Positions 15,983-41,630 of a stretch of DNA of 64,000 nucleotides are shown piece after piece; positions within the stretch are counted from its first letter, which is position 1, and every line of letters begins with the position of its first letter. The notes beneath the pieces were generated by a model. That model was given only the letters and a program-made list of their open reading frames with translations. It was not told the DNA's origin and did no database searches. The DNA is taken from contig MKUP01000023.1 in NCBI GenBank assembly GCA_001898625.1, forward strand, positions 62,001 through 126,000. Reading direction: 5' to 3'. The DNA comes from Burkholderiales bacterium 67-32. GTDB taxonomy: Bacteria; Pseudomonadota; Gammaproteobacteria; Burkholderiales; Burkholderiaceae_B. A program made the translations under genes and the position numbers.

Positions 15983-17292
15983 GCTGGCAGATCGCGGCCT
16001 GGATCCTGCTGGGTGGATCCACGGTGTTGCTGTTCATCGGCATGCCCGTGGCGCTGACCTTCATCTCCATCAACATCATCGGCGCGTGGCTGTACATGGG
16101 AGGCGAGATCGGGCTGATGCAGCTCGCCCGCAACAGCGTCAGCTCGGTGGCGGCCTTCTCGCTCACGCCCATCCCGCTGTTCGTGCTGATGGGCGAGGTG
16201 CTGTTCCACACCGGCCTCGCGCTCAAGGTGATCGACGGCATCGAGCGCCTGATCACGCGCGTGCCGGGGCGCCTGGCCGTGGTCGCGGTGGTGGCCGGCA
16301 CGGTGTTCTCGGCCATTTCCGGATCGACCATCGCCACCACCGCCATGCTGGGTTCGCTGATGCTGCCCGTCATGCTGTCGCGCGGCTACCACCCCCGCAT
16401 CGCGACCGGGCCCATCATGGCCATCGGCGCCGTGGACATGCTGATACCGCCGTCGGCGCTGACCGTGCTGCTGGGTTCGCTGTCGGGCATCTCCATCTCC
16501 AAGCTGCTGATAGGCGGGGTGATGCCGGGGATCATCCTGTCGGTGGCCTTCGTGCTGTGGATCGTGGTGCGCGTGCGCATCACGCCGTCCTGGGCACCCT
16601 CCGATACCGGCGAGCGCCGCACCGGCTGGGCGCGGTGGAGCCTGTTCGTGGCCTACGTGCTGCCTACGCTGTCCATCTTCGGCGTCGTGGTGGGCGCGCT
16701 GGCGGCGGGCTGGGCCACGCCCACCGAATGCGCGGCGCTGGGGTCCTTCGCCACCATGCTGCTGGCCATGCTCTACCGGCGCCTGACCTGGGAAGCCGTG
16801 GTCAAGTCGCTGAAGGGAACGGCCGCCATCTCGGGCATGATTCTGTTCATCATCCTGGGTGCCACGACTTTTGCCCAGATCCTGTCGTTCTCGGGCGCGA
16901 GCAACGGCCTGGTGGAGCTGATCACCGGCCACGGGCTGTCCACCGGCATGATCGTGCTGGGCATGATGCTGATGCTGATCTTCCTGGGCATCTTCGTCGA
17001 CCAGATCAGCATGATGATGATCACGCTGCCGATCTTCATGCCCATCGTCGGCGTGCTGGGCATCGATCCGGTGTGGTTCGGCGTCATGTTCCTGATCTGC
17101 ATGCAGCTCGGCCTGCTGCTGCCGCCGCACGGCCTTTTGCTGATGACCATGCGCGGCGTGGCGCCGCCGTCGGTCTCGATGGGGACGATCTTCATCGCGG
17201 TCGTGCCCTACGTGGTCATGAGTCTGTTGCTGCTGGGCGTGGTGTTTTTCGTGCCGGGTATCGCCACCTGGCTGCCGAAGATGCTTGGCTAG
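15979..17292 (+). CDS. TRAP transporter large permease (DctM)
   Basis: A 437-residue membrane protein with about 12 hydrophobic helices, the transport channel of the TRAP system. Family landmarks are MGEVLFHTGLALKVIDGI, the AISGSTIATTAMLGSLMLP repeat region and PPSALTVLLGSLSGIS. The C-terminal pseudo-repeat has DQISMMMITLPIFMPI and GLLLPPHGLLLMTMRG. Length is standard. It is the last gene of the iorA-iorB-TRAP unit. The 836 bp beyond its stop hold no gene, so transcription probably ends there, although no simple T-rich terminator is visible. Confidence 0.92.
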
Positions 17293-17365
17293 CTGCCTAG
17301 GCTGAATCGCCATTCATGGCATCCATGATGACTGGCCTCAATGGCGGGGATCGAGATCTTGAACC

Positions 17366-17611
17366 GTCCTTGGTCGGTGGGGCGGGGCGGCCCGCTCGGG
17401 GGGCGCAGCGAAGCCGGTCCCGCTGCGCGGGACTACCCGGCGAGGGTGGGCTTGGCGGGGCGGGCGCAGAACTCGCGCGGGGATAGCCCCCCGGGCTATC
17501 CCTACTGCCGCGCTCAAACAGCTGCGCCCTTGCTTCCCCGCCAAGCCCACCCTCGCCGGCGGCTCCGAATGCGCCCCCCGAGCGGGCCGCCCCGCCCCAC
17601 CGACCAAGGAC
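17366..17611 (+). repeat. Palindromic element copy 1, 246 bp
   Basis: The outer 41 bp (17366-17406) are perfectly complementary to the last 41 bp. Pairing continues inward to a centre near 17490, where GGGATAGCCC faces GGGCTATCCC. The left arm has an extra bulge containing GTCCCGCTGCGCGGGAC, itself a small hairpin, opposite a shorter segment ATTCGGAGCCGCC on the right arm. This asymmetry gives the element an orientation. It is a structured non-coding repeat; function unknown. Confidence 0.85.
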
Positions 17612-17720
17612 TACCACGGTGATAAGTGACGATCGCGGGTCGAGACTCGGCGATGGGTCTTTCTCCATTTAATAAGACGACCGTGCTGAAGTTCATGGGG
17701 CTAGTTGACTAGCGGTGCAG

Positions 17721-17966
17721 GTCTTGTCCGATGCGCCGGGGCCGGGCAGGCGGTGGGGCGCATTCGGAGCCGCCGGTGGGGACAGGGTGGACGGGGAAGC
17801 AAGGGCGCAGTTGTTTGAGGGCGGCTTTCGGGGTAGCCCAGTGGGCTACCCCGGCCCGAGTTCTGCGCCCGCCCCGGCCACCCTGTCCCCACCGGGTAGT
17901 CCCGCGCAGCGGGACCGGCTTCGCTGCGCTCCACCGCCTGCCCGGCCCCGGCGCATCGGACAAGAC
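17721..17966 (-). repeat. Palindromic element copy 2, 246 bp, inverted
   Basis: Same length as copy 1, with 40 of 41 outer positions pairing. The bulged hairpin GTCCCGCGCAGCGGGAC is on the right arm and the ATTCGGAGCCGCC segment on the left, so it is inverted relative to copy 1. The centre is GGGGTAGCCC facing GGGCTACCCC. The outer stem sequence differs from copy 1 at many positions while remaining self-complementary. The right end runs into ACCGGGTAAAGAAC, resembling the flank of the third copy at 41529. Confidence 0.85.
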
Positions 17967-18013
17967 CGGGTAAAGAACATGAACATGAATGTCGACTCCG
18001 CCCATAATTGAAT

Positions 18014-18027
18014 TTGATTTGCATCAA
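18014..18027. promoter_or_regulatory. Perfect FNR/Anr-type box
   Basis: TTGAT, 4 nt, ATCAA: an exact match to the FNR/Anr consensus, extended by one more complementary pair (T and A). It lies about 100 nt before the oxygenase start codon. A GGCTAT hexamer at 18055-18060, preceded by TG, could be the -10, placing the box near -46, slightly off the classical -41.5. The site suggests oxygen-responsive control of the oxygenase operon. Confidence 0.65.
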
Positions 18028-18128
18028 AAATGGGATGATGAGTTCCAGCCATGTGGCTATGCCCGGGCTGGGCAAATCCTTACCATCGCTCCGTCGCCCG
18101 AAGTTCGCGAGGCGTATTGGAGAAAACG

Positions 18129-19382
18129 ATGGAGGCAGCAGAGGCGCTGGTCAGTTGGCCCAGCGAAGGCATCACCCGGGTGCCGTTCCAGGTCTTTTCC
18201 GACCAAGAGGTCTACGACAGGGAACAGCAGCGGATCTTCCGCGGTCCGGTCTGGCAGTTTCTTTGTATCGAACAGGACATTCCCGAGCCCGGCGACGTCG
18301 TTACGACCTGGATGGGCGAGACGCCGGTGATCGTCGCGCGCGACCACGACGGCCAGGTCAACGCCATGGTCAACCGCTGCGCCCACAAGGGCGCGCTGGT
18401 CGCGTTGAAGGCCAAGGACAAGGTCAAGAACCTGACCTGTGTCTACCATGCATGGTCGTACCGGTTGGATGGCCAATTACGGTCCATCGCCTTCCAGAAC
18501 GGCGTCAACGGCAAGGGCGGCATGCCCGAGGACTTCGACGTCGACGCGCATCGGCTGCAACCGGTGCGCGTCCAGGTTTTCTGCGGGCTGGTGTTCGGCA
18601 CGCTGTCGGACGAAACGCCGCCGCTGGACGAGTTCCTGGGGCCGCGCATGAGCGCTTTCATCCAGCGCAACTTCGGCCGGCCGCTGAAGGTGCTGGGCCG
18701 GCACAGCCAGATCATCCACAACAACTGGAAGCTGTATGCCGAGAACGTGCGGGATTCCTATCACGCGACGCTGCTGCATACCTTCTACACGACCTTCAAG
18801 GTCAACCGCCTGGACATGGACGGGGGCATCATCCTGTCCGACCGCAAGTGGCACCACATCAGCTATTCCAAGCGCGCCACCTTCAACCTCGACAAGGAGT
18901 ACCTGACGGCCGAGGTGCACTCCGCCAAGTACGGCGCGAAGCACGGCGAATCGGCGCTGGAGGGGCCCGAACTGCTGGATGCCTGGGAGGAGTTCGACGA
19001 CGGCATCACCCACAGCATCCAGACCGTGTTCCCCAACGTGGTGTTCCAGTTCACGCTCAATTCGCTGGCCATCCGCTTCTTCGTGCCCCAGGGCGTGGAC
19101 AAGACCGAGCTGAAGTGGATTTTCCTGGGCTACGAGCGCGATACGCCCGAACAGTCGAAGATGCGCATCATGCAGTCCAACCTGACCGGCGCGGCCGGCC
19201 TGGTGGCGCTGGAAGACGGCTGCATCAACGAGTTCGTGCAGCGGGGCACGGTGGGGTCGGGCCGGCGCGCGGCGTTCATCGAGATGGGCGGCCGCGTGGC
19301 CGAATCGAACGAGTCGTCGCGGGCCACCGAGGCTTCCGTCAGGGGGTTCTGGCACGGCTATCGCGACATCATGGGATTCTGA
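18129..19382 (+). CDS. Ring-hydroxylating oxygenase, large (alpha) subunit
   Basis: Catalytic subunit of a Rieske non-heme iron oxygenase that inserts oxygen into an aromatic ring. The 417-residue protein starts at ATG 18129 with GGAG 6 nt upstream. The Rieske cluster ligands are in CAHKG (Cys84, His86) and CVYH (Cys104, His107). The mononuclear iron site is in ENVRDSYHATLLH (His212, His217, with Asp209 as the bridging residue), and LEDGCINEFVQRG is the C-terminal signature. The chain resembles anthranilate, salicylate and terephthalate oxygenases; the substrate is not assignable. The beta subunit follows 13 nt later. No reductase or ferredoxin gene is adjacent, so electrons must come from a partner encoded elsewhere. 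Confidence 0.9.
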   Translation: MEAAEALVSWPSEGITRVPFQVFSDQEVYDREQQRIFRGPVWQFLCIEQDIPEPGDVVTTWMGETPVIVARDHDGQVNAMVNRCAHKGALVALKAKDKVKNLTCVYHAWSYRLDGQLRSIAFQNGVNGKGGMPEDFDVDAHRLQPVRVQVFCGLVFGTLSDETPPLDEFLGPRMSAFIQRNFGRPLKVLGRHSQIIHNNWKLYAENVRDSYHATLLHTFYTTFKVNRLDMDGGIILSDRKWHHISYSKRATFNLDKEYLTAEVHSAKYGAKHGESALEGPELLDAWEEFDDGITHSIQTVFPNVVFQFTLNSLAIRFFVPQGVDKTELKWIFLGYERDTPEQSKMRIMQSNLTGAAGLVALEDGCINEFVQRGTVGSGRRAAFIEMGGRVAESNESSRATEASVRGFWHGYRDIMGF

Positions 19383-41473: not shown

Positions 41474-41528
41474 CGCTTATTTCTCCTCGGTCGTCGTCGG
41501 GGGCTGTATGACGGGAGTTCTTGTCCCG

Positions 41529-41630
41529 GTCTTGTTCGAAGCGGCGGAGCCGCCCAGCCCCTGGGGCGCAGCGAAGCCGGTCCCGCTGCGCCAGCCTACC
41601 CCTGCCTGCCCCCGCCCCGCCAGACAAAAC
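41529..41630 (+). repeat. Truncated relative of the 246-bp palindromic element
   Basis: A 41-nt left arm running from GTCTTGT to GGGGCGC is followed by AGCGAAGCCGGTCCCGCTG, the bulge segment of copies 1 and 2. The right end has ACAAAAC but the rest of the right arm no longer pairs. Flanks resemble copy 2 (ACCGG then TTAAGAAC). It lies in the 199-bp gap between the LysM gene and the cargo candidate. Confidence 0.72.

Follow-up and report, generated by a model that had tools for sequence, protein, structure and literature searches.

Large convergent hairpins with nearly free stems and conserved loops form a dispersed repeat family in Pigmentiphaga and other Burkholderiales

RIME and the Correia/NEMIS elements are mosaic intergenic elements of bacteria that carry palindromes or terminal repeats. 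Palindromes of another kind, the REP doublets known as REPINs and the related BIMEs, are described in excerpts of two accounts as non-autonomous and intergenic, with inverted doublets as the rule, compensatory changes in the stems and strand-specific recognition via loops, bulges and a short tag (PMC3116915, PMC8266576). Nearer to the organisms considered here, our literature searches for earlier accounts gave two close leads only, PMC2267715 and PMC3110155. The BRE of Bordetella (Hot et al. 2011) is a repeat of about 90 bp (75-91 bp, mean GC 69.0%) that is mostly intergenic and chromosomal, stands in tandem at some loci and has multiple copies in Alcaligenaceae and Comamonadaceae, and it is reported to give rise to transcripts of about 80 and 200 nt; the available excerpts of that paper mention no hairpin (PMC3110155). 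The Bor-1 stem-loop family of B. bronchiseptica and B. pertussis, published in 2008, is given as intergenic and structured, with lengths of 117 and 93 bp and 196 and 128 members (PMC2267715).

The window, by which we mean the whole stretch of 64,000 nucleotides that was analyzed, comes from a genome that appears from its sequence to be of the Pigmentiphaga type. It holds two large palindromes (Table 1), flanked by two plus-strand genes, one for a dctM transporter and one for a Rieske dioxygenase; an earlier note had described these palindromes as 246 bp long each, 109 bp apart and inverted relative to each other. The palindromes are real and mutually inverted, as both the outer and the second stems pair at nearly every position, and each copy taken as a single strand folds far better than its shuffled versions (z scores of -17.9 and -17.7, with 0 of 200 dinucleotide shuffles as good in either case). 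The gap measures 108-109 bp, and the length of 246 bp holds for copy 1, while copy 2 has 248 bp if its last pair is counted and 246 bp without it. The outer stem sequences differ strongly between the two copies, just as the note had claimed. The conservation that it saw in the inner part does not extend strictly to the apex stem (GATAGCCC versus GGTAGCCC) but does hold for the surrounding internal-loop sequence (AACTCG opposite CTCaaACA, and CTTGcntCCC). Open frames within the palindromes show no sign of coding, in line with the same note, and five of them gave no Pfam match at E 0.1. The remnant of a further copy in the window, which the genome-wide search placed at 103531-103601 of the contig, is no confident match to the covariance model (R1, E 0.81 at 41522-41596).

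Table 1. Positions of the hairpin pair and associated features in the window
Feature	Position	Strand	Remark
Copy 1, hairpin element with type A outer stem	17366..17611 (246 bp)	-	Minus is the putative constrained strand
Copy 2, hairpin element with type B outer stem	17720..17967	+	Plus is the putative constrained strand
Copy 1 outer stem, left arm	17366..17407		42/42 paired with 17570-17611
Copy 1 outer stem, right arm	17570..17611
Copy 1 small asymmetric hairpin, then ACCCGG	17416..17434
Copy 1 second stem, left arm	17437..17460		24/24 paired with 17536-17559
Copy 1 second stem, right arm	17536..17559
Copy 2 outer stem, first arm	17720..17762		42/43 paired with 17925-17967
Copy 2 outer stem, other arm	17925..17967
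Copy 2 second stem, first arm	17773..17796		23/24 paired with 17872-17895
Copy 2 second stem, other arm	17872..17895
Spacer between the convergent copies	17612..17719		The L017 and L029 A+B doublets have a related spacer, as judged by eye
Conserved internal-loop strand AACTCG	17470..17475		6/6 positions at least 90% conserved in 107 aligned copies
Internal-loop strand CTCAAACA, opposite AACTCG	17513..17520		TGTTTGAG when read along the constrained strand; in 107 aligned copies, conservation is at least 90% for CTC and ACA and 70-90% for the two intervening A
Conserved bulge and start of second stem, CTTGCTTCCCC	17529..17539		CTTG and CCC at least 90% conserved in 107 copies
Tail motif adjoining copy 1, AGATCTTGAACC	17354..17365	+	Variant of GTTCTTGAnCC
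Tail motif adjoining copy 2, GGGTAAAGAAC	17968..17978	+
Left terminal inverted repeat of the Pigmentiphaga composite, CTAGGCTGAATCGCCATTCATG	17297..17318	+
Right terminal inverted repeat of the composite, CATGAATGTCGACTCCGCCCA	17984..18004	+
Remnant of a further copy	41531..41601	+	Tail, part of outer stem and start of small hairpin; inner part lost

Read along the plus strand of copy 1, the unit begins with the tail GTTCTTGAnCC or a variant of it and continues through an outer stem of variable sequence, a small hairpin that varies as well, CTnCCC, the second stem, again variable, GGGCG, the AACTCG loop opposite CTCaaACA, a variable apex stem and CTTGcntCCC into the return arms. The unit carries the tail motif GTTCTTGA, and among the matches listed the tail adjoins the outer stem in most copies of the genus. 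A genome-wide search of the window genome gave 18 matches in about 13 places, and the next search, of 41 genomes, found matches in 10, namely 9 of the 11 genomes of the same genus (the window genome included) and G012, which belongs to another genus. An exact sub-sequence was found in records of two Pigmentiphaga strains, P. kullae K24 and an Alcaligenaceae bacterium. In a sample of 151 genomes of the taxonomic family, where five candidates were scored per genome and the counts are therefore lower bounds, copies are present in at least 32 genomes and at least 18 of 43 genera. A covariance model built from 17 genus copies gave 131 matches at E ≤0.01 in 82 loci, a figure that includes weak opposite-strand readings of the same palindromes and is thus not a copy count. 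Across the order (120 genomes, 22 candidates scored per genome, again a lower bound), the model matched in at least eight, which are the window genome and seven genomes from five other families with more divergent copies. The pair had been proposed to represent a structured non-coding repeat family, a proposal that was staked on further copies in the genus; many such copies exist, and others are found in further genera and families.

The divergent copies from the order-wide sample (L153, L154, L155, L157, L158, L159, L161, L162, and L163) carry a second hairpin module that is TTTCTTTTGGCGAAGCAAAAGAAAG-like and, in 9/9 loci readable by eye, comes next on the 3' side with respect to the constrained strand; the tenth locus listed, L156, falls outside this count since the stretch shown missed the match. 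Minisatellite arrays with units of 38-96 bp adjoin the hairpins at L098, L101, L108, L122, L123, L139, and L140, and the array units of L098, L108, and L122 hold the tail motif (TTTCTTGA or GTTCTTGA, on either strand). Several copies (L030, L037, L051, L055, L059, and L009-L011) border on a contig end, are close to one, or include runs of N; such assembly breaks may be caused by the hairpins, and the runs of N could alternatively be masking.

By its makeup the family is best compared to a giant REPIN of the REPIN/BIME kind, with which it shares inverted doublets (18 of 22 neighboring pairs are convergent) and compensatory stem changes. In contrast to REP sequences of 20-50 nt, the unit measures about 246 bp, the sequence of its stems is almost free, its tag is GTTCTTGA (GTTCTTGAnCC-like in the genus, GYCTYAAGAAC in G067) instead of GTAG, and a Y1 transposase was found in only 3 of the 24 copy-bearing genomes tested, so that membership among the REPINs fails on size, tag, and transposase. 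The likeness to the BRE lies in a similar host range and in the length of about 85 bp that many cross-genus matches of the hairpin family have as well, and the BRE, which we compared by description in the excerpts only, may be the conserved core of this family as a local alignment sees it (PMC3110155); the motifs that we sought do not occur in the main text of that paper. A pattern of two CTCRAACA cores 66-96 bp apart was matched in 51 of the 151 genomes, and at L101 the array that adjoins the hairpin has 5.2 units of 96 bp. No tandem core array was found among the matches listed other than a CRISPR-like one in G164 (contig C33, 59221-60973; 25 pattern matches), whose repeat contains CTCAAACA and which is unrelated. 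It is also possible that Bor-1 is a partial description of the same family, again judged from its description; its members are shorter than the hairpin element, and no doublets are described in the available part of that report (PMC2267715).

The earlier note had read the matching arms as a sign of selection on the fold or of hairpin-templated repair and had proposed a covariance model across copies. In an alignment of 105 distinct copies that was fitted to the structure and leans towards it, 93.8% of 6842 stem cells are paired compared with 64.0% after shuffling; stem pairs changed on both sides number 66/68 compared with 54.6 in the shuffled controls, counts that stand for related copies and not for independent events. 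The covariation score is 0.651, compared with 0.145 when shuffled and 0.056-0.086 with slid partners. The fifth measure, further pair types, reached 199 versus 191 in shuffles (36/500 shuffles were as high) and is weak at best as evidence of covariation. Four of the five covariation measures exceed their controls, which supports selection on the fold.

Because that alignment was fitted to the structure, the behavior of orthologous copies serves as a test free of alignment bias. Orthology was judged by the similarity of the flanks, which were read at the window locus, and the comparison covers seven groups of copies at six loci that species have in common. Its 16 pairwise comparisons, which are not independent, contain 57 compensated pair changes, 2 non-standard double changes, and 45 single-sided ones; the groups g2b, g5, and g7, the copy L024, and the half-versus-half comparisons of the g3 locus were left out because they mix copies of different stem types. 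Between L008 and L062, an indel in both arms and an adjacent double change are both compensated, as judged by eye. Independent variation of the two arms in other strains, the outcome that would have told against the earlier note, is thus not what other species display, as their arms change together; the single-sided changes are nevertheless numerous.

The mismatches that remain in the stems are biased with respect to strand. Counts obtained by folding are biased by a fixed mismatch, and we therefore relied on an arm-to-arm alignment and on a per-genus count. The arm-to-arm alignment, which retains recurrent sites, gave ratios of A.C to G.T among transition-type mismatches on the displayed strand of 53:4 in 47 genus copies and of 86:10 in 53 other copies, so that 139 are G.U-compatible on one strand compared with 14 on the other. 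The A.C mismatches are G.U-compatible on the opposite strand, which is the minus strand in copy 1 and the plus strand in copy 2. When each combination of column, type, and genus in the model alignment is counted a single time, the ratio is 116:45, and without seven recurrent columns (those with at least eight cells of one type) it is 72:26, with p 4e-6 under an assumption of independent sites that does not quite hold. Among 18 genera with such mismatches, 13 lean towards A.C, 2 lean towards G.T, and 3 tie. Our results suggest that there is a single constrained strand, which seems to be minus in copy 1 and plus in copy 2 and which would act in folded form, as RNA or as single-stranded DNA. This bias is consistent with strand-specific recognition by a putative protein.

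A mutational bias from C to T on the constrained strand could mimic part of this signal, which is weaker after de-duplication. On that strand, five of the six flank sets that were counted have T as their rarest base, namely both sets from G067, both sets from other genera, and the 3' flank of the genus copies, while in the 5' flank of the genus copies A is rarer; such T-poor flanks speak against a plain C-to-T bias. In G067, the wobble-forming single changes C>T and A>G number 15 and 6, compared with 4 for G>A and 1 for T>C, and the distinct single-sided events (11 C>T, 2 A>G, 4 G>A, and 1 T>C) are too few to settle the matter.

Mobility, which the earlier note had considered possible, is supported at least as dispersal within one genome. 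G067 has about 30 dispersed places with at least 80% identity over most of the unit, in addition to partial copies, and flanks were read at 28 of them, which comprise the query copy and 27 further ones with 86-98% identity to it. Its unit starts about 18 nt ahead of the stem and includes the tail that follows the stem, has a sharp 3' end, and ends in exactly GYCTYAAGAAC in 24/28 tails, and it has spread as single hairpins, not as doublets. Elsewhere, convergent doublets are seen across genera, and among 107 model matches 22 pairs of neighboring copies, some of them from paralogous or orthologous loci, include 4 in the same direction and 0 divergent next to the convergent majority. Several seemingly solitary Pigmentiphaga copies retain the spacer and the end of a lost partner and are therefore decayed doublets. 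In Pigmentiphaga, terminal repeats (GGCTGAATCGACATTCATG) enclose the doublet at both ends, with at most four mismatches, in 10 non-identical composites that span 155-703 bp, the three longest being 675-703 bp. The earlier note mentions neither a single constrained strand nor convergence across genera, nor the tail motif or these outer repeats.

The arms evidently recombine, as L033 and L049 have a core that is flipped relative to its flanks, and at one orthologous locus the Pigmentiphaga species differ by an inversion of the whole hairpin (L067 compared with L068 and L070). At the L005 locus, hairpins have been removed by deletions between short repeats. A search for empty sites gave no clean pre-insertion site, as the gaps that G002 and G007 have at this locus result from later deletions and still contain part of the outer stem.

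The search for an enzyme that might mobilize the hairpins did not single out a familiar one. The Y1 transposase domain of RAYT proteins (PF01797) was found in G012, G050, and G081 only, out of 24 copy-bearing genomes tested, and was found neither in the window genome nor in eight other Pigmentiphaga genomes with copies nor in G067; G050 and G081 are the 2 positives among the 14 copy-bearing genomes of a second set, for which 5 of 14 control genomes were positive. In the genomes tested, the mover thus does not look like a RAYT. A retroelement was rejected, since reverse transcriptase (RVT_1) occurs in 8 of 10 copy-bearing genomes and is absent from G003 and G012, and the loci of 15 reverse transcriptase matches contain no hairpin copy. 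The IS91-like Y2_Tnp domain had no match in 14 genomes and likewise none in control genomes, which makes this result uninformative. As for possible carriers, the window pair had no match in the plasmid collection, and the L155 copy matched no phage and one plasmid record, pILYOP01 of Ilyobacter polytropus (L228), in six places, with the best of these limited to its 3' module. The one of these six places that was read in this Fusobacterium plasmid has a TTTCTTTGG..CAAAGAAAG module after a large AT-rich predicted hairpin. The core pattern was matched in viral_contigs no more often than chance would give by a rough estimate, among the matches listed.

Our results lead us to favor, tentatively and at somewhat less than an even chance, the reading that the window pair is one composite copy of a non-autonomous hairpin element that is dispersed in Burkholderiales, acts through one folded strand, and is mobilized by a protein. 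The active form would be a single strand folded alone (minus for copy 1, plus for copy 2), and a protein acting in trans would read the loops and the tail instead of the stem sequence, so that any stem sequence that pairs would suffice. The same protein would cut, copy, or carry the hairpin, and as a putative enzyme it does not look like RAYT. In Pigmentiphaga, the doublet enclosed by terminal repeats of about 20 bp, often adjoining CTA or TAG, would perhaps travel by a second vehicle of the DDE type. A broader claim, that large mobile hairpins with one folded active strand, free stems, fixed loops, and convergent doublets exist order-wide and are moved by an enzyme that is neither RAYT nor a described single-strand transposase, we regard as rather doubtful at this time.

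The constrained strand might instead be that of a transcribed structured RNA, either a small RNA or a processed 3' end, that has a host function and has spread by a side route, and this is a possibility to be taken seriously, even if we favor a mobile element of single-stranded DNA over a host RNA. An RNA would suit both the mismatches, which are G.U-compatible on one strand, and the second hairpin module that divergent copies have 3' on that same strand, and the transcripts that excerpts report for the BRE would add to this if the BRE is the same family (PMC3110155). Nevertheless, beside co-directional genes the copies have no preference for the RNA-sense orientation (21 versus 24), the single promoter-like site at 17250-18150 lies outside both copies, and Rfam offers no family above chance: there was no match in the window at gathering score, eight matches around the copies below that score under relaxed thresholds (best E 0.007), and one match in 13 loci under relaxed thresholds (E 0.33). 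The position of the copies between genes raises the quite unlikely explanation that selection keeps them between convergent genes as bidirectional terminators or as insulators of 3' ends. According to a home-made gene caller based on a GC3 heuristic, the gaps that contain 102 of 110 copies (the other eight, with less than 500 bp on one side, were dropped) are convergent in 46 cases, co-directional in 45, divergent in 3, and undetermined in 8, all raw counts without a genome baseline. The excess of convergent over divergent gaps would suit such a role, whereas the region at 17250-18150 has 0 terminator-like sites in which a T-run directly follows a stem-loop (0.7 expected in shuffles), no T-run stands directly beside either window stem, and sister species have lost much of the element by large deletions at both the window locus and the L005 locus. 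The suggestion of a dual terminator in the earlier note is thus not supported.

Selection on the fold is not the only process that could keep palindromes perfect, since hairpin-templated repair or gene conversion from arm to arm might do so neutrally. The compensated changes among the orthologous comparisons, which stand against fewer single-sided and non-standard double ones, the compensated indel and double change between L008 and L062, and the flipped cores and inverted hairpin that reveal recombination between arms all agree with such correction; however, it predicts neither the conserved internal loops nor the strand bias of the mismatches nor the recurrence of one architecture in distant genera whose stems are entirely different. 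We therefore consider it improbable as the sole cause, the role in which the earlier note had offered it as an alternative, while it may well add to the near-perfection of the stems. That the family is an ordinary MITE, moved by a DDE transposase via the outer terminal repeats with the hairpins as passengers, seems scarcely credible. The ten Pigmentiphaga composites do have common terminal repeats, with CTA before the left repeat in 5/10 and TA after the right repeat in 8/10, but a scan of 107,053 bp from the loci of other genera, where hairpins and doublets nonetheless occur, gave 0 matches to these repeats, and the hairpins of G067 move alone.

With this family it becomes possible to test an old question, namely whether palindromic repeats persist through selection on a folded strand or through repair from arm to arm; the material consists of copies at orthologous loci, mismatches with a strand bias, and the set dispersed within a single genome. 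On the practical side, these hairpins may break assemblies and yield spurious open frames. If the strand-specific reading is true, many Burkholderiales would possess either an unknown enzyme that acts on single strands or a common class of RNA that has not been listed so far.
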